A DNA stretch of 33,913 nucleotides from Gemmatimonadota bacterium (GTDB lineage Bacteria > Gemmatimonadota > Gemmatimonadetes > Gemmatimonadales > GWC2-71-9), in the NCBI GenBank assembly GCA_029262155.1, contig JAJCZW010000189.1, positions 1 through 33,913 of the forward strand, written 5' to 3'. The notes beneath the pieces were generated by a model. It saw only the letters and a list, made by a program, of their open reading frames with translations. It was not told where the DNA came from and ran no database searches. Below are positions 2,023-33,330 of this stretch, one piece after another (position 1 is the first letter of the stretch; each line of letters opens with the position of its first letter). Position numbers and translations under genes: made by a program.

Positions 2023-3567
2023 TCAGTGCCCACCTTCGTGGCCGTGATCCCCTCCCGCCATGGTGGTGCGTTGGAGTTCGGCGTCAATCACCGCCCGAAT
2101 CCGGGCGATCTGGTCGGGTCCTGCGAACCCAATCCACTGTTGCACCAGCTTGCCGTCGCGATCGACCAAGATCGTGTAGGGGAGGCCGAAGTAGTGGTAT
2201 TTCGCCTTCATATCCCCCTTGCCCAGGAGGACGGGAAAGTCAGAGCCGAATTGGGAGATGAAGGCCTCGGCATCTTCCGAGTGAATGTCCTCGTTGATCG
2301 TGATGAACCGAAAACCTGAGTCAGTCACCGCGTGTCGGAGTGAATCGAGGGCGGGCATCTCTTCCCGGCAGGGAGCACACCAGCTAGCCCAGAAATTGAC
2401 GAGGGTCACCTTGCCGCGGAGGTCTGTGTTGGCCATCTGCCCGCCGCCCATCTGCTCCAGTTCGAACGGAACGATAGGTTCCCGGTCGGTCGGCGAAAGT
2501 CCGGTGAGCAGCTGCAGCTCATTCAGGAGAAAGACACGTCCCTCGTTCCCGACGGCGATCGTTGGGAGTGCGACCGGGAGTTCCGCGGTGCGGAGGAGCA
2601 CGCCGGTGGTGCGGTCGAACACATCCAGGCGCGAACGATCGGTCGTGAATCCGGGTGTACTCAGGACATAGAGCCGATCATCTGGTCCGATAGTGGCGCC
2701 CAGGTTCACCGGATGGTAGTCGATCACGGCCTTTCCATCCTGCAGCTCGAACTTTGGCTGCGTTGTGGATTGGGGGAGATCGCGTGACGCGACCCAGAGC
2801 GTCTCGCCAGCCGCGGTCAGAGCCAGGATCTGATCCCGGATAAATGGGGCGAAGTAGACGGTGTCGCCCCGCCCCGCCACATGGCCGGCATTGTTCAGAT
2901 CAGCCAACAGGATGTGTTGAGGGAGGTCGACGAGTCCCGTGGTTCCTCCAGCGGTTCCATCTGCCCCAATACGAGAGAGCAAAGGGGCATCAGGCGATTC
3001 GAGTGCGTAGGCGAATCGGGCTGGTGATCGGACCAACCAGACCCCGCCCTGACCGTCACTCCCCAAGTCGGTATAGTTGAATGGGCTTTTGGCGGTGGGC
3101 TTGAGCGAGCCGTCGAGGCTTGCAAGCATCACGTCGCCGTTGAGATCGGCGACCCAGAGACGATCGCCTGGGCCAGCGGTGGCCGCCACGATCTCCCGTC
3201 CCTCTCGCTGGAGCAGAACCCGCCGTACTCGGAGCCCCTCGTCGAAGCGGATTAACCCCCCACTCCCGTCGAGGACGACGGCACCATCCACCGTTTGCTG
3301 GGTCTGACGACCGGCAAACCACAGCAGATGCGTATCTTCGTCCGGAGGAAGTGTGTCTAACATGAGGTGCTCCGCAGGCTGAACGGTCACCACATGCCGG
3401 GCGGACCCGAGGGTGGTCACCACCGGCTCGGCGGCGTTGACGTTCGACGTGGCGATCGGTCCCCGCGCCGTTTCCCCCGTGCAGCTCGCGAGTATTCCCG
3501 CGGTCGCCACCCAGAGGGTAATGCGCAGAGCGGGCCGGAACAGGTTCCGGCCCATCTCCTTCAGCAT
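2023..3567 (-). CDS. TlpA/ResA-like thioredoxin-fold lipoprotein with N-terminal beta-propeller
   Basis: 514 residues. A lipoprotein signal peptide ends in ILASC (lipobox), followed by about 320 residues rich in propeller-type strands (GGLIRFDEGLRVRR, GDRLWVADLNG, DRLYVLSTPG, EGRVFLLNEL), an NHL/6-bladed type arrangement. A C-terminal TlpA/ResA domain has the redox motif WCAPC in VTLVNFWASWCAPCREEMP and the cis-proline loop GLPYTI. It ends in a His-rich tail GGDHGHEGGH that could bind metal. Periplasmic, membrane-anchored thiol-disulfide exchange is the expected role. The start lies 6 bases after the stop of a small Cys-containing secreted protein, with an SD formed by TAAGG, so they form one operon. 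A propeller-thioredoxin fusion is uncommon among plain TlpA proteins. Confidence 0.85.
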   Translation of the reverse strand: MLKEMGRNLFRPALRITLWVATAGILASCTGETARGPIATSNVNAAEPVVTTLGSARHVVTVQPAEHLMLDTLPPDEDTHLLWFAGRQTQQTVDGAVVLDGSGGLIRFDEGLRVRRVLLQREGREIVAATAGPGDRLWVADLNGDVMLASLDGSLKPTAKSPFNYTDLGSDGQGGVWLVRSPARFAYALESPDAPLLSRIGADGTAGGTTGLVDLPQHILLADLNNAGHVAGRGDTVYFAPFIRDQILALTAAGETLWVASRDLPQSTTQPKFELQDGKAVIDYHPVNLGATIGPDDRLYVLSTPGFTTDRSRLDVFDRTTGVLLRTAELPVALPTIAVGNEGRVFLLNELQLLTGLSPTDREPIVPFELEQMGGGQMANTDLRGKVTLVNFWASWCAPCREEMPALDSLRHAVTDSGFRFITINEDIHSEDAEAFISQFGSDFPVLLGKGDMKAKYHYFGLPYTILVDRDGKLVQQWIGFAGPDQIARIRAVIDAELQRTTMAGGDHGHEGGH

Positions 3568-3573
3568 GTTGCC

Positions 3574-3966
3574 TTACGCTTTCTTGATGTTGTCGATCTG
3601 AATCGCCTTGGCGCCGCCCGCCTCGAACACTTTGCCCGAGATGGTCACCTTCTCCTCGGCGAACTCTTTCAGGCGATCGTTCTGACCGTCGCCTGGCATG
3701 CCAGCCGACGTGGGAATGTACAGGACCCCGTCATCGCCCAGAATGGCGAGGGGGATTCCCTTGTCGGCGCACACCTGGGCGCACATCCGATGCTCCTTCA
3801 CGCCCGTGAGACCCTGCCCGAACTTGCACGAGACATCGATCACCGTTCCGGTTACCGAGGCCTCCACATGCTTGGGTGTCTGCATCTTCATCTGTGCTTC
3901 TGCCTTGGCCGGCATCGCGACGGTCAATGCGGCGAGCGCCGCCATCCCAGTAAGGGACTTCACCAT
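3574..3966 (-). CDS. Small secreted cysteine-containing protein, function unknown
   Basis: 130 residues with a Sec signal peptide (basic start, hydrophobic core, MPAKAEAQ cleavage region). The mature part is an OB-fold-like beta-rich domain, VTGTVIDVSCKFGQGLTG to KVTISGKVFEAGGAKAIQIDNI. It has Cys at about 47, 62 and 66; the last two form MCAQVC, and a His precedes them (EHRMC). I recognise this as a recurring but uncharacterised secreted family, probably metal- or thiol-active. The SD AAGGAG lies 7 bases before the ATG, inside a perfect 12-bp palindrome (CCTTCATGAAGG). The next gene, 6 bases downstream, is a TlpA-like thiol oxidoreductase, which makes the cysteines of this protein a plausible redox substrate. 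That link is inferred. Confidence 0.7.
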   Translation of the reverse strand: MVKSLTGMAALAALTVAMPAKAEAQMKMQTPKHVEASVTGTVIDVSCKFGQGLTGVKEHRMCAQVCADKGIPLAILGDDGVLYIPTSAGMPGDGQNDRLKEFAEEKVTISGKVFEAGGAKAIQIDNIKKA

Positions 3967-3975
3967 GGTACCACT

Positions 3976-3987
3976 CCTTCATGAAGG
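3976..3987. repeat. 12-bp perfect palindrome over the ribosome binding site
   Basis: CCTTCATGAAGG is fully self-complementary and overlaps the AAGGAG Shine-Dalgarno of the small secreted protein gene on the minus strand. It could be a dimeric protein operator or a small RNA hairpin limiting ribosome access. Chance occurrence is also possible. Confidence 0.35.
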
Positions 3988-4241
3988 TTGTCCTACCCTG
4001 CCGGCGTTGTGACACCGGCCCTCTGCGCTGGCCTACCCGATGCCAGCCCAACTGTGTGATATCTTCGGTGTACTTCCTTGGGTTTGCGCGGACATGGTCC
4101 GACCCAGACTGGAGGGAGTCTTCCGTCCCGATACCGCATGGATGTCTAGGTAGGTGACGACATGACCGGGTCGGTTGGATCTCACGACGTGGCGGCCCAA
4201 GGGAGTGTCAGCCGAACGACAATGTGGCCACAACGGCGACT

Positions 4242-4565
4242 CTATGGCCTGGGTGAGGGACCCTTCCACCCGAATCGTGCCAGGTCAATTCGGCCACGCG
4301 CATCGAACCGGATCCCTTCCTGCTCCAGCCGCTGTCGCTGGACCCGAACCCACTCGGCGTTGGCACGGGGGCTGATCCCGCCTTGCGCGTTGACGACACG
4401 ATGCCAGGGGAGATCGACTTCATCGGCTCGACGGAGGGCATAACCAACCATGCGAGGTTGCCGGGGGAAACCGGCAAGGGTGGCGATCCATCCGTAGGTG
4501 CTCACCCGCCCCCGGGGGATCGCCCGGACAGCGGTCAGGATACGGGCGTCGATCGACTGGGACAC
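4242..4565 (-). CDS. Alkyltransferase-like (ATL) DNA-damage recognition protein
   Basis: 107 residues matching the C-terminal DNA-binding domain of O6-alkylguanine-DNA alkyltransferase: IPRGRVSTYGWIA, then QPRMVGYALRR with the presumed Arg finger at R38, then LPWHRVVNAQGGIS. The alkyl-acceptor Cys of the PCHR motif is replaced by Trp (PWHR, W54), the hallmark of ATL proteins such as E. coli YbaZ and yeast Atl1. These cannot transfer the alkyl group; they flip and bind O6-alkylguanine and hand the lesion to nucleotide excision repair. The start is GTG with a strong GGAGGAGGAG SD. It lies 57 bases after the DUF3179 gene on the same strand and may be read through from the Crp promoter. Housekeeping-type repair role. 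Confidence 0.9.
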   Translation of the reverse strand: MSQSIDARILTAVRAIPRGRVSTYGWIATLAGFPRQPRMVGYALRRADEVDLPWHRVVNAQGGISPRANAEWVRVQRQRLEQEGIRFDARGRIDLARFGWKGPSPRP

Positions 4566-4622
4566 TGGCTCCTCCTCCAGGTGCGGTGGGGCACCAGGAT
4601 GGAGGAAGCTAGACCGAATTCT

Positions 4623-5735
4623 CTATTGGACCAGTCGCGTATCGGGGCGGAAGGCGACCCACGCAAACCAAAAGTGGTTCCCGTGAGTAATCGGTGTGAG
4701 TTGCTGTCCCGCGAGTTCGCCAGCGACCGCCCGACCGAGAATGCTCCAGGTGGAGTTGGTCTCGCGATCACGGAACGTGCCGGGACCGTGAGGGCTGAAA
4801 TGGAGGTCCCTATTGCCCAGCTTGGTTTCGAAGACGCCGGTGGACCCGACGTCTCGTCCCCGGGCGATCGATTGCGCGTCGAGTGCGCTTGCGGTTCCCG
4901 GTGCCCAAAAGATGACCAGCGAGGTGCCGTTGACCGTATCGTGTCGGACCGAGTCTTTCGCCAGACCAGTAAAGGAATGGGCTACTCCCCCCGCTCCTAT
5001 TGCGATCGCGACGACCCGTTCCATGGCCGGGAGCCGTGGATCAGGGGTGGCGCTCACAAATCCGGGAATCGGTTTCCCTGAGGGGCGGTCGTAGTCAGTG
5101 TAGGGGTTTCGACCATAGGGACGATCGTGCCCAGTCTCGCGGGACAGCACCTCCCCGTCGGGCCAGGTCTCGCGAAAGGTGCGCCAGCTAACGAGCGGTG
5201 CTCCGATCCGAGTCAGTCGCGTTCCCGTCAATTCGCCAACGATTCCCTCACCAGTGGCCTGCTGCCACCAGGTTTCGGTCTGACGGTCGTACATGACCAT
5301 GTCGGAATTACGGAGCCGCCCTGAGACACCGAAATCGAGTATCCGGTCTCCCACACGCCGATCGAAAGCAATCGCCGTGTTACACAGCGGGCAGAAGGTG
5401 ACCGTGACCGGTTTGTCGCCGATCTGGTCGTTGACGATTTCATGCCAGATGAGGATCTGAAGCGGGTACGCCCTGGCGGTCCGACCGGTTTCCACGACGA
5501 CCACCGGCTCTGGATCGGCGAGCCAGCGGCCGGCTGCTTTGACCGAGACAAACTTCGGGTGGTCGATCGCCGGGATGCCGTCCTTCGACGGGCCACCGGA
5601 GACGATCTCGTTGGCCGGGACACTTCGTCGGGAGAAATCGGTCTTCCAACGCTCCGATCCCTGAGCCAGAATCGACCCAGCAGTGGTAAGAGTGATCGTT
5701 GCCACCAGCGCGGCGTGGCCGGTCAGTTTCCTCAT
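4623..5735 (-). CDS. Secreted DUF3179 domain protein
   Basis: 370 residues with an N-terminal signal peptide ending near ILAQGS. The rest is a DUF3179 domain, recognisable from ARAYPLQILIWHEIVND, VTVTFCPLCNTAIAFDR, FGVSGRLRNSDMVMYDR and the late block GRNPYTDYD. The CPLC motif is the family's hallmark; its biochemical function is not established, though a metal or redox role has been suggested by the paired cysteines. Its ATG overlaps the stop of the Crp/Fnr-type regulator gene (ATGA), so both are translated from one mRNA. That coupling suggests the regulator controls, or responds to conditions handled by, this exported protein. Confidence 0.85.
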   Translation of the reverse strand: MRKLTGHAALVATITLTTAGSILAQGSERWKTDFSRRSVPANEIVSGGPSKDGIPAIDHPKFVSVKAAGRWLADPEPVVVVETGRTARAYPLQILIWHEIVNDQIGDKPVTVTFCPLCNTAIAFDRRVGDRILDFGVSGRLRNSDMVMYDRQTETWWQQATGEGIVGELTGTRLTRIGAPLVSWRTFRETWPDGEVLSRETGHDRPYGRNPYTDYDRPSGKPIPGFVSATPDPRLPAMERVVAIAIGAGGVAHSFTGLAKDSVRHDTVNGTSLVIFWAPGTASALDAQSIARGRDVGSTGVFETKLGNRDLHFSPHGPGTFRDRETNSTWSILGRAVAGELAGQQLTPITHGNHFWFAWVAFRPDTRLVQ

Positions 5736-9130: not shown

Positions 9131-11284
9131 GTGTCATTCCGTTTTCCTGACTGGTGCCGCTCGACGCCACTTGTGCTCTCGCTGGCGAGCGGCACGATCT
9201 CTCCCAACGAGCTCCTGGGACAAGACCCCGGGCGGCCGGACACCACCCGATTGCCGACCGTCGAAGTGACGCGCACCCGCTCCCGTCGCCCTCTGGCAGA
9301 TCAACCCCTGGCTTTTACCCAGATTCCCCGGACCGCCTTTACCGGAACATCGGGGTACGCTCTCGATGAGATCCTACGGTTCGTCCCGGGTGTCTTTGCC
9401 CAGTCCCGGTCAGGCACCTCCGATATCCGGTTGGTGATCCGAGGGTATGGAGCGCGCGGATCAGGGGATCGTTCCAACTCCGGGACCTCACGAGGCGTCC
9501 GGATCCTGGTCGACGGGTTTCCTGAGACTGAGCCCGACGGCCGGACTTCTTTCGATGGGATCGACCTCAACTCGGCTCGGAGTATCGACGTCATCCGGTC
9601 GAATGCATCGAGCGTCTGGGGCAATGCCGCTGGTGGGGTCGTGAACGTGTACACCGACGCCCCGCTAGATCATCCATATGGCACGGTCGAGAGTGCTGTC
9701 GGTGGCTTCGGCATGCGTAGGTTGAACGGACGACTGGGCACCCGGCTGGGGGAACAGAGTCGTCTTCACTCCGCGGTGTCGCGGACGACCTTCGACGGAT
9801 GGCGGGGCCATTCCTCAAGCGAGCGTACCCTCGCCTCGGCCTCGGTGGTGACGGAGTTTGGCGCGGGGACCTCGCTCGGGGTCTATGCCTATGGCGTCTC
9901 CCACCGCTTCCTCATTCCGGGCCCCCTGACCCAGGCACAGGTGAACGAGAACCCGCGCCAGGCTAACCCTTTCTACGCCGCGCGCGGAGAGCGACGGTTC
10001 AATCGGCTCGGCCGGTTAGGGGTCCGCGTCACACATCGACTCTCCCCGCGACTGGACATCAACTCCATGGTGTTCGTCAGCCCCAAGTTTCTGCAGCGAT
10101 CCGAACGGGGGACCTTTCGCGACTTCACTCGATATCATGTGGGCGGCAATGCGGTCATCACCTGGGAGGAGCCGTTCGGGTTTGATCTTGGTGCCCTGAC
10201 GGCGGGCGTGGACGAGGCCTACCAGGACGGGGCCATCCTGTTCTATTCGCTCTCTCCGACCAACGGTCGCGGTGACACCCTCCGAACCAACAAGCGGGAG
10301 GCCGCCAACAACTTCGGTGCCTTCGTGCAGCAGGAAATCACCGTCGGACGATGGGGATTGACGGTTGGCGCTCGGTACGACGACATCACCTACACCTCCG
10401 AAGATTTCCTCTCGAAGGGCTTCTCCGACACCAAGTCCTTCACTGGGGTGACCCCCAAGATCGGACTGACATTCGAACCTGGTGTGGGACAGACCCTCTA
10501 TGCCACACTCGGTGGTGGAGTCGAGGCCCCGGCGGGAAACGAGACCAATCCGGTCAGTACCTTTGGGCAAGACACGTTGTTTGCCATCAACCCATTGTTA
10601 GAGCCGATCCGCTCCACCACACTTGAGGCTGGCTATCGTCGGGTGGCGCTCATGGGATCGGCCATCCTGAGCCTCGACCTGGCGGCGTATCGTACTACGG
10701 TCCGGAACGAGATCATTCCCTTTCGTGGCGGTCAATTCACGCTGTCGGCCGGTCGAGTGAGGCGGATCGGCGCCGAAGTGGGTGCACAGCTCCTCGTGGG
10801 GAATTTTCGGGGCAACTTGGCGCTGACCTTCTCCCACAATCGGTATCAAGAGTATCTGGTGGATTCGGTCCATTTCGGACGTCCGGGATCTGTCGCCGAT
10901 TTCAGCGACAACACGGTGATCGGTGTCCCAGCTGCCACCTTTGCTGTCGGGGCGGGCTATCGGGTGCCTGCCCTGGGGAATCTTGAGACCAAGGCCACCC
11001 TCTATGGCGCGTCGCACTATTTTGCCGACGATGCAAACCGGGTGACCGTACCCTCCTGGAGAGCGGTCGATCTCACCGTTGGGTTACCCGCCGCACTGTC
11101 GCTCGGTGGTGGGCTGGGTGTTCGTGGGGCGCTGACGGTGAGTAACCTGTTCGATGCCAACTATCTGGGTTCGGCCTTCCTGAATCCAGACGTCGTCAAC
11201 GGCGTGCCGGTGGCATTCGAACCGGCTGCGCCGCGACGGCTTTTGGTTTCGTTCAGCATTGGACAATTCGGAGATGGAGAGTAG
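9131..11284 (+). CDS. TonB-dependent outer-membrane receptor
   Basis: 717 residues. The start is GTG with AAGGG upstream; a hydrophobic leader precedes [13 protein letters not shown]. The plug domain (about residues 45-190) has the usual progression [40 protein letters not shown] and [17 protein letters not shown]. The rest is a 22-strand-type barrel with repeated amphipathic strands, ending [10 protein letters not shown] with a terminal aromatic before a short tail. It imports a ligand too large for porins using TonB energy; the plug resembles FecA/CirA-type receptors. Its stop is 2 bases from the YbjQ-family gene. Flanking amidases suggest the ligand or its product contains amide bonds, but siderophore uptake cannot be excluded. 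Confidence 0.93.
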
Positions 11285-24785: not shown

Positions 24786-27779
24786 GTGTGGACTCGTTTT
24801 CGACTCTCGTTGATCGTGCTCGGCGCCATAGTTGCCGCCGACGTGGGCGGGCTGGTCGCACAGACCCTCGACACCACCTTCTTCCACGAACTCCGCTGGC
24901 GGTCGATCGGGCCGTTCCGGGGGGGACGCACCAAGGCGGCGGTCGGTGTCCCCAGCCGTCCAGGTACCTTCTATATCGGCGCGACCAACGGTGGGGTCTG
25001 GAAATCGACCGACTACGGCCAGGTGTGGCGTCCGATCTTCGATGCCCAGCCGACTGGGTCGATCGGTGCGATCGCCGTGGCGCCCTCCGCGCCCGATGTG
25101 ATCTATGTTGGGAGTGGCGAAGGACTGCAGCGACCCGATCTCTCGGTGGGCGATGGGATATACAAGTCGGTGGACGGCGGGAGGAACTGGGCGCATTTGG
25201 GTTTGCGGGACGCGCAGCAGATCACCCAGATCGTCGTGCATCCCAAAGATCCCGATCATCTCTTCGTGGCGGTGTTGGGCCATCCCTACGGACCCAATGC
25301 CGAGCGGGGGCTCTATCGATCGGTGGACGGTGGGAGCAACTTCACCCGTATACTCTATCTGAACGAACACACCGGCGCGGGCGACGTCGTCCTCGATCCT
25401 ATCGACTCGAATATCATCTACGCATCACTGTGGGAGACCCGGCACGCGCCGTGGGAGAACGGCGTGTTTACCGGACCGGGAAGTGGTCTCTACAAATCGA
25501 TCGATGGAGGCACTACCTGGCGTCAGTTGACCAACGGACTGCCCACCTTCAAGGACGGATTAGGGCGTATTGGGATTACGATTGCGCCGAGCCTGCCCAG
25601 CCGGTTGTATGCCACAGTGGAGGTAGGGGGACGAGGGGAGGGGGCGGTCTATCGCTCCGATGATGCAGGTGGCACCTGGCGACGGCTTCCGGCCGACGGC
25701 CGGGTGGCCCAACGGGCCTACGACTTCGCCGAGGTGAAGGTCGACCCGCGCGACCCGAATACGGTGTATACCGGAAGCATCGTGGTCTGGAAGTCGATCG
25801 ATGGAGGACAGAGCTGGACCGCGATTCGGGGTGCCCCGGGGGGAGATGATTACCATCGGATCTGGATCGACCCGACCAGGCCCCAGGTGATGCTGATTGC
25901 GTCCGACCAGGGAGCGATTATCACGGTGAATGGTGGTGCCACCTGGAGTTCGTGGTACAACCAGCCGACTGCGCAGTTCTATCACGTCAGCACCGACAAC
26001 GCCTATCCCTATCGGGTGTGTGGTGGTCAGCAGGAGAGCGGGTCGGCCTGTGTCGCGAGTCGGGGGAACGACGGCCAGATCACCTTCCGGGAGTGGCACC
26101 CGGTTGGGGTCGAAGAGTATGGCTATGTCGCGCCGGATCCCAAGAACCCTGACATCGTGTATGGCGGGAAGGTGACCCGATACGATCGACGGACCGGACA
26201 GGTCAAGAACGTGGCGCCCAAACTCTTCCGGTCGGAAGACTATCGCACCATCCGGACGATGCCGCTGGTCTTCTCACCGATCGACTCAGTCACCCTCTAC
26301 TTCGCGTCGAATACGCTTTGGAAGACGGTGAACGGCGGGGAAGACTGGACCCGGATCAGCCCTGACCTGACGCGATCAGATTCCTCGGTGTCGCCGAGCA
26401 TCGCGCACTATGGGGACAGGCCAGAGGCGAAGTCGCATCATCCGGGGGTGATCTATACCATCGCGCCGTCGCTGGTATCGACCCGGTGGATCTGGGTGGG
26501 GACCGATGACGGATTGATTCATCTGACGAGAGATGCCGGTAGCAGCTGGACCGATGTGACCCCACCCGAGTTGGTGCCGTGGGCCAAGGTCTCGATGTTG
26601 GACGCATCGCCGTTCGACACCCTGACCGCCTATGCCGCCATCAACACGCTGCGTCTGGACGACCTCCGTCCCCATATCTATCGGACCCGGGATGGCGGAA
26701 AGAGTTGGACCCATATCACGAACGGAATTCCGGATGGTGGATCGGTCAACACCGTTAGGGCCGACCCGGTGAGGCCCGGCCTCCTCTATGCCGGCACCGA
26801 GCGCACGGTGTATGTCTCCTTCGACGACGGCGACCACTGGCTTTCGCTTCGGAACAACCTCCCCGCGACCTCGATACGAGACCTGGTGGTCAAAGACGAC
26901 GACCTGGTGATCGGCACTCACGGCCGGGGATTTTGGATCTTGGACGACGTGACCCCCCTCCGGCAGGTCAGTACCGCTACGCTCGGCGAAACCGCCCATC
27001 TCTATCGCCCTGAGCTGGCCACCCGGGTGCGCTGGAACATGAACACCGACACGCCGTTGCCCTACGGCGAACCAGCCGGCCAGAACCCCCCCGACGGTGC
27101 GGTTCTCCATTACTGGATCGGCCGGTCGGCTGCCAGAAATCGGGAGGTCACCCTCGAGATCCTGGACCGATCGGGTGTGGTCGTACGGAGGTATGCCAGC
27201 ACCGATCCGCCGGAACAGCCATTAGAGGGACAAAACGTACCCGACTACTGGGTCCGTCCGCCCCAACGCCTGCTGGCGACGCCTGGGCTCCATCGCTTTG
27301 TCTGGGATCTCCGGCACGAGCGGCCGGCGGCTCCGCGGTTCAGCTATCCGATCGCCGGCATCCCGTGGAATACAGTACCGGTGCCCAAGGGGTCGTGGGT
27401 GTTACCGGGCGAATACACTGTCCGGCTCACGGTAAGTGGCCGGCAATTGTCCCAGCCGCTGACCGTGCGGCTCGACCCCCGGGTCACCACACCCCTCACG
27501 ACGCTCCGTCGGCAGTATGCCCTCTCCCGGCAGCTGGACGGCGCAATGCGGCAGGTGGCGGAGGCGAGGGAATCGGCCGGGGCAGCGGTTCCGGCGGTGG
27601 CTCGGTATCGGGAAATCGAGCGCGACCTCACTCGGTTGCATGGGGACCTGGCGCGCCTGTTCGGGGTGGTGGAGCAGGTGGACGACCTGCCGACCACCGA
27701 GGCGCGGGCAGCGATACGGGAGCGGTTGAGTGAGGTGGAGAAGGTGCTAGAGCGGGTGAGGCGACTGGAATCCCCATGA
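24786..27779 (+). CDS. Large secreted Asp-box (VPS10/sortilin-like) beta-propeller protein
   Basis: 997 residues. The start is GTG with a strong TAGGAGGAGGG SD; the signal peptide is WTRFRLSLIVLGAIVAADVGGLVAQ. At least ten Asp-box repeats (S/T-x-D-x-G-x-x-W) are visible: KSTDYGQVW, KSVDGGRNW, RSVDGGSNF, KSIDGGTTW, RSDDAGGTW, KSIDGGQSW, KTVNGGEDW, TRDAGSSW, RTRDGGKSW and SFDDGDHW, as in sortilin/VPS10 ten-bladed propellers and BNR sialidases. No sialidase catalytic set is evident. After residue 760 come Ig-like strands (HRFVWDLRHERPAAPRF) and a coiled coil ending RERLSEVEKVLERVRRLESP. Common in Gemmatimonadota and often mis-annotated as glycosyl hydrolase. The tail has a shadow copy at 29.34 kb. 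Confidence 0.9.
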   Translation: MWTRFRLSLIVLGAIVAADVGGLVAQTLDTTFFHELRWRSIGPFRGGRTKAAVGVPSRPGTFYIGATNGGVWKSTDYGQVWRPIFDAQPTGSIGAIAVAPSAPDVIYVGSGEGLQRPDLSVGDGIYKSVDGGRNWAHLGLRDAQQITQIVVHPKDPDHLFVAVLGHPYGPNAERGLYRSVDGGSNFTRILYLNEHTGAGDVVLDPIDSNIIYASLWETRHAPWENGVFTGPGSGLYKSIDGGTTWRQLTNGLPTFKDGLGRIGITIAPSLPSRLYATVEVGGRGEGAVYRSDDAGGTWRRLPADGRVAQRAYDFAEVKVDPRDPNTVYTGSIVVWKSIDGGQSWTAIRGAPGGDDYHRIWIDPTRPQVMLIASDQGAIITVNGGATWSSWYNQPTAQFYHVSTDNAYPYRVCGGQQESGSACVASRGNDGQITFREWHPVGVEEYGYVAPDPKNPDIVYGGKVTRYDRRTGQVKNVAPKLFRSEDYRTIRTMPLVFSPIDSVTLYFASNTLWKTVNGGEDWTRISPDLTRSDSSVSPSIAHYGDRPEAKSHHPGVIYTIAPSLVSTRWIWVGTDDGLIHLTRDAGSSWTDVTPPELVPWAKVSMLDASPFDTLTAYAAINTLRLDDLRPHIYRTRDGGKSWTHITNGIPDGGSVNTVRADPVRPGLLYAGTERTVYVSFDDGDHWLSLRNNLPATSIRDLVVKDDDLVIGTHGRGFWILDDVTPLRQVSTATLGETAHLYRPELATRVRWNMNTDTPLPYGEPAGQNPPDGAVLHYWIGRSAARNREVTLEILDRSGVVVRRYASTDPPEQPLEGQNVPDYWVRPPQRLLATPGLHRFVWDLRHERPAAPRFSYPIAGIPWNTVPVPKGSWVLPGEYTVRLTVSGRQLSQPLTVRLDPRVTTPLTTLRRQYALSRQLDGAMRQVAEARESAGAAVPAVARYREIERDLTRLHGDLARLFGVVEQVDDLPTTEARAAIRERLSEVEKVLERVRRLESP

Positions 27780-27866
27780 CGCTTCTCATACTACCTGTCT
27801 TGGTCCGCCGAGCGTTTCTCTTGGATCTATCTCTGGAACCTATATAGCGCGGGGGTGTTCAACATC

Positions 27867-29015
27867 ATGTTTCTGTTCATTGGTTACGCGTCTGGAGTGT
27901 GGCTGAGGAGACCCAAGGCTCCCAGCGGGCTGATAGTGGCAGGGCTCATGTTCGCCGGATGTCTTCGGGGAGCAGAGCCTCAATCTTCGTCTCAGCCTGA
28001 GACCGCCCTTGACAGCGTTGTCCACATCGAATCCAGCCTGAGTGCTGTGCCAGTTGTACCGCGACTTGATACTTCAGCACTGCTCCAACCACAGCGTGTT
28101 GATATCGGAGAGGGCACCCGACTCTACGTCCTTCAGGAGGGTTCCGGGCCGGCACTCGTTCTAGTGAGCGGCGGACCCGGCAACTCCTTGCACTCCTTCC
28201 TCCCGCACTTCGAAAGCGCCGCGTCGTTTGCGCGTGTGATCTACTATGATCAGCGCGGTACTGGGCTTTCGGATTGGGTGCCAGGTCCAGCCGGCTACTC
28301 GACGGACCAAGCGGTGGACGACCTCGAGCGCCTTCGGGTTGCGCTTAATGTCGAGCGCTGGTTTGTCCTGGGCCATTCCTACGGAGGGCTCATCGCACAG
28401 TGGTACGCCATCCGCTACCCGGAGCGCCTCCTCGGCATGATTCTCGTTGGATCCTCGGTTTCGGTCGACGGAGTCGACCTCGGCGAGCGGGACTATCGCT
28501 CGGCTACGGAGCGTCGGCGGATTAGAGAGGTTTACGCCATCGACGGACAGTCAGTGGTCCCTGTCCACAGCGAGCAAGTGAATCTCACAGCGCTGCAGCG
28601 GATGATCTTCAACGGGTACTTGAACGGTGATTGGAAGCGACAGTTCTTTTTCAAGCCAACTCGTGAACGCATGGCGCAGATCGCGCGGTACGAGTGGGTC
28701 CACGATCGTGGCTACAACGGTCAGGTCCGGCAGGACGGGTTCAGCAGGAATCTGCGCGGTGTCTTCAGCGACTTCCCCATCCCTACGCTGATTGTGGAAG
28801 GGGAGTATGATGCCAACTGGGGGCGAGATAAGCCGACGTTGTTGGCGGCGGAACATCCGAACGCAAAACTCGTCAGCTTGGAGGGAGCGTCGCACTTTCC
28901 CTTTGCTGAGCAGCCGGAGGCCTTTTTCGGCCGGCTGGAGGAATTCGTCGGCGGTCGGCCGCCGGTCGACCTCACAGCCGTCATTGAGTGGAAGCGTTCG
29001 GTCGGGCAGCGATAA
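27867..29015 (+). CDS. Alpha/beta hydrolase (S33 proline iminopeptidase-like), probable lipoprotein
   Basis: About 382 residues from ATG 27867; the track uses GTG 27855, and neither start has an ideal SD. A hydrophobic stretch ends in LMFAGC (lipobox FAGC), preceded by basic WLRRPK, so the true start could be slightly later. The hydrolase domain is clear: LVSGGPGNSLHSF (oxyanion region), YYDQRGTGLSDW, nucleophile elbow GHSYGG, acid in EGEYDANW and His in GASHFPF. This pattern fits prolyl aminopeptidase/tricorn-factor-like S33 enzymes releasing N-terminal residues from short peptides. It ends VDLTAVIEWKRSVGQR; a diverged copy of this tail is found about 700 bases downstream. A TATATA box lies just upstream (27841). 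Confidence 0.88.
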   Translation: MFLFIGYASGVWLRRPKAPSGLIVAGLMFAGCLRGAEPQSSSQPETALDSVVHIESSLSAVPVVPRLDTSALLQPQRVDIGEGTRLYVLQEGSGPALVLVSGGPGNSLHSFLPHFESAASFARVIYYDQRGTGLSDWVPGPAGYSTDQAVDDLERLRVALNVERWFVLGHSYGGLIAQWYAIRYPERLLGMILVGSSVSVDGVDLGERDYRSATERRRIREVYAIDGQSVVPVHSEQVNLTALQRMIFNGYLNGDWKRQFFFKPTRERMAQIARYEWVHDRGYNGQVRQDGFSRNLRGVFSDFPIPTLIVEGEYDANWGRDKPTLLAAEHPNAKLVSLEGASHFPFAEQPEAFFGRLEEFVGGRPPVDLTAVIEWKRSVGQR

Positions 29016-29342
29016 GGGACACGGCGCTCCCGAAGGGGTGTGGCAATCATTCTCCATAGAACAGATAGCCGTTCCACAGGTTACTCTGTTAGGCATCGTT
29101 GGATTCGCAGGCCCCTGCGGCATATTGTCGATAGGCTCTATGCGCGATACGTTGATTCCTTGGGGGGTGTTTGGGGGGAGCAGAGAATGCCACGCGAGGC
29201 GTATTCGTCATGCGACTTGAAGGCATTGCGAGTCACTCAGTTCGGTGAGATGCCGTTCATTCGGGAGGATGGGCTCTGGTTGGGTTCCTGAAGGCCGATC
29301 GCACAAACATGGTCGCGATGTTCGAACGTTCACTCGGCAGGA
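29016..29342. other. Non-coding spacer after the hydrolase, nothing recognised
   Basis: No gene is supported here. The ORFs in the track (29040-29291 and minus-strand frames) show no family motifs, poor start context and unusual composition. Two runs of six G (near 29162-29178) and a GTTAGGC heptamer are visible but form no recognised structure. The stretch looks like decayed intergenic DNA that leads into the Asp-box-type tail remnant. Confidence 0.4.
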
Positions 29343-29405
29343 AAAGAGCGTGTGGGTGAGGTGGAGCAGGTGGTGGGGTGTGTGAGGTGGTTGGAGGCCA
29401 GGTAG
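29343..29405 (+). pseudogene. C-terminal remnant of an Asp-box (VPS10-like) gene
   Basis: The frame reads KERVGEVEQVVGCVRWLEAR followed by TAG. It lines up without gaps with the end of the intact Asp-box protein at 27779 (RERLSEVEKVLERVRRLESP): ER, EVE, V, VR and LE are identical and most others are conservative. Nothing resembling the rest of that gene precedes it, so only the extreme C-terminus survives. The match is short, so chance or independent coiled-coil similarity cannot be excluded. Confidence 0.45.
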
Positions 29406-29458
29406 TGTAGATGTGGCGCTTACGGTCACGTAACCGGATACTGCGTACGGAGGTTCTA

Positions 29459-29683
29459 GTGCCCGTATATGAGAACCGAGGTGGTGACTCTGCGGTGGTC
29501 AGCCATGAGAGCACAAGTGACTCGATCACCGTCACTTTCCACGATGGCTCAACCTACGCCTACGACTACACCGCAACAGGTAGGCACGACACCGAGCAGA
29601 TGAAATCACTTGCCAGAAATGGAGAAGGACTGAACACGTATATCAGCCGATATGTAAGGAAGAGGTACGCGCGCAAACTCTAG
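29459..29683 (+). CDS. Small KTSC-like domain protein
   Basis: 74 residues from GTG 29459, which follows GGAGG by 5 bases; the longer track ORF (29411) adds a non-conserved leader. The sequence VPVYENRGGDSAVVSHESTSDSITVTFHDGSTYAYDYTATG to EQMKSLARNGEGLNTYISRYVRKRY matches a widespread family of 70-80-residue stand-alone proteins with a KTSC-like beta core (SI.V.F.DG..Y.Y) and a conserved GEGLN.YI...V...Y end. Function unknown; such genes are frequent in accessory regions. It lies between two gene-tail remnants, so it may have arrived by insertion. There is no signal peptide. Confidence 0.75.
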   Translation: MPVYENRGGDSAVVSHESTSDSITVTFHDGSTYAYDYTATGRHDTEQMKSLARNGEGLNTYISRYVRKRYARKL

Positions 29684-29684
29684 T

Positions 29685-29740
29685 GAGCCGGCGTTCGACC
29701 TCGCCCCGACCGTCGAATGGAAGCGCTCGGTCGCACGTGA
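29685..29740 (+). pseudogene. C-terminal remnant of an alpha/beta hydrolase like the 27.9-kb gene
   Basis: Just after the KTSC-like stop the frame encodes EPAFDLAPTVEWKRSVAR. It matches the end of the intact hydrolase at 29015 (RPPVDLTAVIEWKRSVGQ): DL, EWKRSV and the surrounding spacing are shared, and the nucleotides GAATGGAAGCGCTCGGTC versus GAGTGGAAGCGTTCGGTC differ mainly at third positions. The stop seen in the intact gene is not kept in frame, so this is a relic. It is the second paralogue tail in 400 bases. Confidence 0.55.
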
Positions 29741-29879
29741 TACCGAACCATGCCTCCCGATAACGCATGCGGGGCTATTGCGTCCCACCGAGCCGGTGGC
29801 TCGTCTGCTTCTTGCTCATGGTTCCCTTCCTCCCTTCCGAAAATGAACGGTTCCATGCGGAGCTCCACGCCGCGGGTGG

Positions 29880-30323
29880 CTATGTCAACCACTTCCTCAG
29901 TCGAGCCCAGATCCCTCGACGCCTCCTTGAACCCTGTCTCTTCCCCTCGTCCCAGGAAGCTCCCGAATGGTTCCTTGCGATGCCTTTCTCGAAATGCGCG
30001 GTTCGTGTGTCCTGGTCCTGAGCCCGCCCGCTTTCAATCTCCGCGCGCGTCCAGCGGCGCGCCCAGGTAACCTCGTTCCCCCTGATCCAATAGTGCGACT
30101 GACAGGGGCAGCTCCAGTTGCCGATCGACGGGTCAAGTGAGATCGTCTCCCCGTCGAAGGTTAGAGTCCAGTCCGCAGGGGATACATCCGAAAGGATCCG
30201 ATCGGCATGTACTTCATTAGCGAGTGCGATCGTGCGGTTAGGAGCCCCGTATTGTGCGCGAGCCGAGGGCTGTGTACGTTCAATGATCGTCGTCCGCCGA
30301 CACCGAATTGAAGCGCAAGGACG
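29880..30323 (-). pseudogene. DUF6527-family reading frame without a usable start codon
   Basis: A minus-strand frame is open from a TAA at 30324-30326 to a TAG at 29880-29882 (about 147 codons) but contains no ATG or GTG upstream of the conserved core, so it is absent from the ORF track. The core reads SPADWTLTFDGETISLDPSI then GNWSCPCQSHYWIRGNEVTW, then RAEIESGRAQDQ, ending GIWARLRKWLT. PSIGNWSxPCxSHYWI is the DUF6527 signature. The usual N-terminal CxCG-type segment is missing (…IALANEVHADRILSDV instead). From memory, DUF6527 genes often sit beside bacterial ubiquitin-like/E1 (ThiF) cassettes; none is visible here. Most likely an N-terminally truncated relic. Confidence 0.7.
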
Positions 30324-30358
30324 TTAGACCGTAGCCTGGTTCGATGATGGGAGGAGCA

Positions 30359-32748: not shown

Positions 32749-33330
32749 ATGGCGTACGCAGTTGAGACCATCCACCCGTTTCTCGACGGCAACGGGCGAG
32801 TCGGACGATTGCTCATCACCTTTCTGCTGACCGAACGTGGCGTCCTGCAGAAGCCAGTGCTGTACCTTTCGCACTTCTTCAAAAGACACCGGCAGGCCTA
32901 TTACGAGCACCTGCAGGGCGTGCGCCACCAGGGGGAGTGGGAGGCGTGGCTCGCTTTCTTCCTACGCGGTGTGATCAAGGTGGCGGGTGAAGCGGCGGAA
33001 ACGGCCCGTCGCGTTCTTGAGTTGCGCGAGGCCCATCGGACTGCCATAACTGGGAACTTCGGTCGAGCAGCGGGTAACGGTCACATGGTGCTGGAGTCGC
33101 TGTTCGATCGCCCGATCGTGACCGTTCACGATGTACAGCGCATTACCGGTACCACCTACTCAGCCGCGAATAGTCTGGTGGCGCGAATGGTCAGGCTGGG
33201 CATACTCGACGAGATGACGGGCTTTGCCCGCAACCGACGTTTCCACTACTCGCCCTACATTGCACTCTTTAGCGATGAACTGCCGGACAAGATCGGCGAA
33301 CGAACTACCGCGTCAGATACCGCTTCTTGA
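32749..33330 (+). pseudogene. N-terminally truncated Fic-domain (AMPylase-type) gene
   Basis: 193 residues. The open frame begins just before the Fic motif HPFLDGNGRVGR (HPFx[D/E]GNGRxxR), with a stop codon (TAG) 13 codons upstream of the first ATG. Full-length homologues are near 370 residues and have a Fic_N region and about four Fic helices before this motif; all are missing. What follows is normal: LLITFLLTERGVLQKPVLYLSHFFKRHRQAYYEHL and a C-terminal winged helix (VTVHDVQRITGTTYSAANSLVARMVRLGILDEM). No SD precedes the ATG. Fic enzymes transfer AMP to target proteins; class II members carry an inhibitory helix at the N-terminus, lost here with part of the fold. Probably inactive. Its 3' end overlaps the acetamidase end by 26 bases. 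Confidence 0.8.

Follow-up and report, generated by a model that had tools for sequence, protein, structure and literature searches.

Possible relics of a second copy of a gene pair's end downstream of an Asp-box gene and an alpha/beta hydrolase gene

Genes and tails in the window

The window, a stretch of 33,913 nt, belongs to a 3.2-Mb draft genome made up of 259 contigs and carries an intact Asp-box gene that is followed by an intact alpha/beta hydrolase gene. Downstream of this pair lie two short segments, here called tails 1 and 2, which resemble the 3' ends of the two genes and have a small gene between them. The features are:

24786..27779, + strand: intact Asp-box/VPS10-type beta-propeller gene, 997 aa (Pfam Sortilin-Vps10, 93.8 bits; relatives in the same family at most 68% identical)
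27720..27779, + strand: A, 3'-terminal part of the Asp-box gene, parent of tail 1 (27720-27769 match 29346-29395 with 76% identity over 50 nt)
27855..29015, + strand: alpha/beta hydrolase gene, 386 aa (Pfam Abhydrolase_1, 82.6 bits)
28958..29004, + strand: B, 3'-terminal part of the hydrolase gene, parent of tail 2 (74% identity to 29687-29733 over 47 ungapped nt)
29016..29345, + strand: X, spacer from the hydrolase stop to tail 1, with no detectable similarity to the flanks of the parents
29346..29405, + strand: A', tail 1, possible Asp-box end relic, KERVGEVEQVVGCVRWLEAR and then a stop, G-rich and of low complexity, matching 27720-27779
29411..29683, + strand: small KTSC-like gene, an ORF with homologues
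29687..29733, + strand: B', tail 2, hydrolase 3'-end relic, DLAPTVEWKRSVAR, matching 28958-29004

The alignment revealed the nucleophile motif GHSYGG in the hydrolase of the window (27855-29015). This protein does not have the C-terminal extension of about 165 aa that most of the aligned homologues from the phylum possess, and the repeated tail lies where the extension would start. The GC content was 0.60 to 0.68 in the Asp-box gene and mostly 0.55 to 0.62 from its stop codon onward. About 600 nt downstream of tail 2 (29745-30340) hold no convincing gene, only two overlapping ORFs without any Pfam match. The ORF at 32749-33330 begins with a Fic-domain match that covers just the final 26 profile positions, which suggests a truncated or frameshifted Fic gene.

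The preliminary description had placed a KTSC-like gene between the tails. To the eye, the gene does resemble KTSC, and homologues of it exist; its score against the Pfam family KTSC (PF13619), however, was only 12.8 bits, below the cut-off of 25. An initial scan of genome contigs with the gene gave no relative. Homologues also occur on a few plasmids, and a search of 395 genomes gave homologues with 34 to 57% identity in 12 other genomes. Most of these align from about residue 13 to 20, and this homology, along with a GGAGG site, indicates that the true start is probably the GTG near 29459.

Similarity of the tails to the ends of the parent genes

Tail 2 is the more secure of the two. Its match to the hydrolase end scored 37, with 31 as the best background score in about 1.03 Mb of own and related sequence (both strands counted), and Gumbel statistics from di- and trinucleotide shuffles of the comparison with the hydrolase gene gave p values of about 1e-5 to 2e-4. 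The peptide match had a p value of 4e-6. Tail 2 and the hydrolase end have EWKRSV in common, and the changes over this motif are synonymous only. In a search of the 3.2-Mb genome, the 19-nt core of tail 2 was found with at most two mismatches in B and B' only; at up to three mismatches, the matches were B' without a mismatch, B with two and an unrelated site with three, and a reversed control pattern gave one match. Tail 2 is not the end of an ORF: its frame continues as ...SVARDTEPC..., and the hydrolase stop was apparently lost through a 1-nt shift. There is good support for a second hydrolase 3' end. A further candidate copy at 30304-30323 (20 nt, 80%) was rejected; it is comparable to short chance-level pairs and is missing from the genome-wide matches at up to three mismatches. 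A decayed C-terminal extension of the longer hydrolase homologues 3' of tail 2 was also considered, and there was no credible match among the tblastn matches listed. Nor did tail 2 prove to be part of the KTSC-like gene: neither tail was present beside its homologues in the 5 of 13 homologous loci with readable flanks.

Tail 1 has the frame of the Asp-box gene, and the stop codons are in register (offset 1626). Shuffles gave p values of about 2e-4 to 6e-4 for the match, without a correction for how many stretches could be compared. The tail 1 peptide scored 44 against the end of its own Asp-box gene and at most 30 against any of 20 orthologues; against paralogues in its own genome it reached at most 23 in the true frame, and an unrelated frame on the opposite strand reached 36. 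Of all 60-mers in the window, tail 1 is also the richest in G (58%), with its parent A in one of the next G-richest, TRF detected degenerate GGTGAGGT repeats in it, and the match was lost when the low-complexity filter of BLAST (DUST) was switched on. Therefore, tail 1 is suggestive only. Aided by the co-linearity with tail 2, it is nevertheless quite probably a true homologue of the Asp-box end, and a second copy of that end, resting on a low-complexity match, appears likely.

When the whole window was compared with itself, A/A' and B/B' were the two top-scoring direct-repeat pairs no more than 4 kb apart. Both tails lie on the strand of the parent genes and in the same order, A-B-A'-B'. The resemblance in order that had been noted from the sequence is thus borne out for strand, for order and for tail 2, and both tails matched their parents better than shuffled sequence did; for tail 1, the resemblance is present in a low-complexity segment. 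Only 3 of 27 changes fall on second codon positions (binomial p of about 0.01), a bias that divergence as coding sequence would produce. Beyond both tails, the similarity ends sharply. The flank before A', the gap from A' to the small gene and the flank before B' showed chance-level similarity to the matching parental flanks, and the 40 nt directly after B' showed marginal similarity (p = 0.04). Since the flanks of the relics are at chance level, the duplicated unit is not traceable. The segment just before A (27705-27721) and the end of B (29003-29019) are the same in 16 of 17 nt, possibly by chance, and similar-scoring pairs exist elsewhere in the window. As a duplication junction, this match would predict tail 1 directly after the hydrolase, yet tail 1 is 330 nt off, and the candidate was dropped.

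The gene pair in relatives and the integron integrase

Many of 102 genomes of the same family contain close relatives of the Asp-box gene. We took 20 of these Asp-box loci with their downstream sequence, mostly 7 to 9 kb and in some cases only 0.5 to 1.7 kb, and found neither the hydrolase gene nor the KTSC-like gene in the downstream span of any of them (0 of 20). The other downstream genes of the window were likewise not found by the Asp-box genes in these 20 loci. Hydrolase homologues turned up in 9 other genomes among 395, and no Asp-box gene lay within about 1.5 kb of any of those examined. A synteny comparison had been suggested as a way to find a second full pair; the relatives examined, which belong to other genera (there was no same-genus genome among those listed), had no second pair, nor even a first one. 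RNA families were not detected in the search for them, and the literature searched for gene remnants left by tandem duplications in bacteria yielded nothing specific.

We looked for attC sites because the genome has an integron integrase. The gene is complete (435.6 bits, over the cut-off) and lies at 3694-4635 on the minus strand of a contig (C210) other than that of the window. Three minus-strand ORFs (2143-2916, 1280-1987 and 341-1144) are situated downstream of it, with a plausible attC at 2067-2148; integrase and small genes on the same strand possibly represent an inverted arrangement. Nearby are genes that we take, from reading, to be ParA/ParB-like and MnmG-like, and the end of the contig has a 53-nt direct repeat with 96% identity (10900-11047). 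On another contig (C240), a second integron integrase appears as separate partial matches (3212-3833, minus strand) and is apparently broken. Integrons have been reported from many phyla (PMC8618304), and their presence here is therefore unsurprising in itself. Around the tails, neither strand of the region from 24 to 34 kb contained an RYYYAAC...GTTRRRY pair (R''/R') of 45 to 200 nt. With no attC boxes there, integron attC sites at the tails were rejected.

Origin of the tails

Judged from the sequence, we give a probability of roughly 0.55 to the reading that the two fragments are what remains of a second copy of the gene pair's end. A local duplication, or the uptake of a slightly diverged second copy, would have set another hydrolase 3' end downstream of the intact pair, with an Asp-box 3' end probably placed ahead of it. 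Nearly all of the second hydrolase would have been taken away by deletion, and an unrelated KTSC-like gene would have arrived, presumably by a later insertion, between the two surviving ends. Both tails would stem from one event, and a second full pair, although not seen, would once have existed. The relics are probably without present function. The one-strand arrangement A-B-A'-B' agrees with a tandem duplication but not with nested insertions. Against it stands that a tandem duplication predicts more leftover similarity before A', from A' to the small gene and on both sides of B', where only the stretch after B' rose marginally above chance. Thus, of the tandem duplication with only 3' ends left that had been proposed, the copy of the hydrolase end and the order stand, and the chance-level flanks and the lack of a second pair in the relatives speak against it.

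Simpler, and in our view possible although doubtful, is a duplication of the hydrolase 3' end alone (about 50 to 65 nt, by slippage, by template switching or as the leftover of a DNA insertion at the gene end), with tail 1 being a coincidental match between two of the window's G-richest patches. The composition of tail 1 and of its parent region, the degenerate repeats and the loss of the match under DUST argue for this, as do random degenerate arrays, which reached a score of 40 in 3 of 5,000 cases; the frame and the stop in register, the conserved second codon positions and the co-linearity with the secure tail 2 argue against it. The GC drop from about the Asp-box stop onward makes it reasonable to consider a xenologous addition as well, in which the intact pair of a related strain recombined into the Asp-box gene, so that tail 1 would be the native gene end and tail 2 a remnant of a native hydrolase, both displaced downstream. 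The coding-like divergence between the copies and the lack of the hydrolase beside any of the 20 orthologous Asp-box genes are consistent with such an event, but no donor was seen and the downstream genes of the window are not found by the relatives' Asp-box genes either, and we consider it improbable.

Two further readings are very unlikely. The tails could be attC-like recombination sites flanking exchangeable cargo, [A-hydrolase-B][A'-KTSC-B']; such a cassette-like module, in which sites overlapping the coding 3' ends allow the hydrolase to be swapped for the KTSC-like gene, is hardly to be expected. The integrase with at least one plausible attC elsewhere in the genome and the tight flanking of the small gene by A' and B' would agree with it, whereas the lack of an R''/R' pair, of a third genome-wide copy of tail 2 at up to two mismatches and of tails beside the KTSC-like homologues with readable flanks disagrees. 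That gene tails act as recombination footholds, as had been suggested, found no support in these tails. Pure chance for both matches has about as little to recommend it: the tail pairs were chosen post hoc, and pairs scoring as high as 37 occur roughly once per 50 kb in other loci (a rough count that leaves out repeats inside Asp-box genes), but the joint order and strand and the genome-wide uniqueness of tail 2 count against chance.

The relics of a second copy of the pair's end most likely reflect ordinary genome decay, with a convincing hydrolase fragment and a weaker Asp-box fragment. They provide a worked example of how genome-wide uniqueness and gene order allow very short relics to be recognised, and of an adjoining low-complexity match that needs a filter before it is trusted. 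They also show DNA turnover directly downstream of a widely conserved Asp-box gene.

Compared with known systems, the locus resembles integron gene cassettes with attC sites in that directly after a small gene comes a short sequence that also occurs where the preceding gene ends, and in that the genome encodes an integrase; it differs in having no R''/R' boxes near the tails and no repeats of tail 2 elsewhere. Site-specific integration can duplicate gene ends, giving attL and attR at gene 3' ends. The copy of a gene 3' end displaced downstream is alike, but the interleaved order A-B-A'-B' is not, and none of the genes identified near the tails is an integrase. Gene remnants in bacterial genomes can come from decayed tandem or segmental duplications. 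Unlike in those, the pieces here are only about 50 nt long, the flanks are untraceable and no relative was seen with a second copy; alike are the short fragments of neighbouring genes, in the same order and on the same strand, directly downstream of the intact copies.
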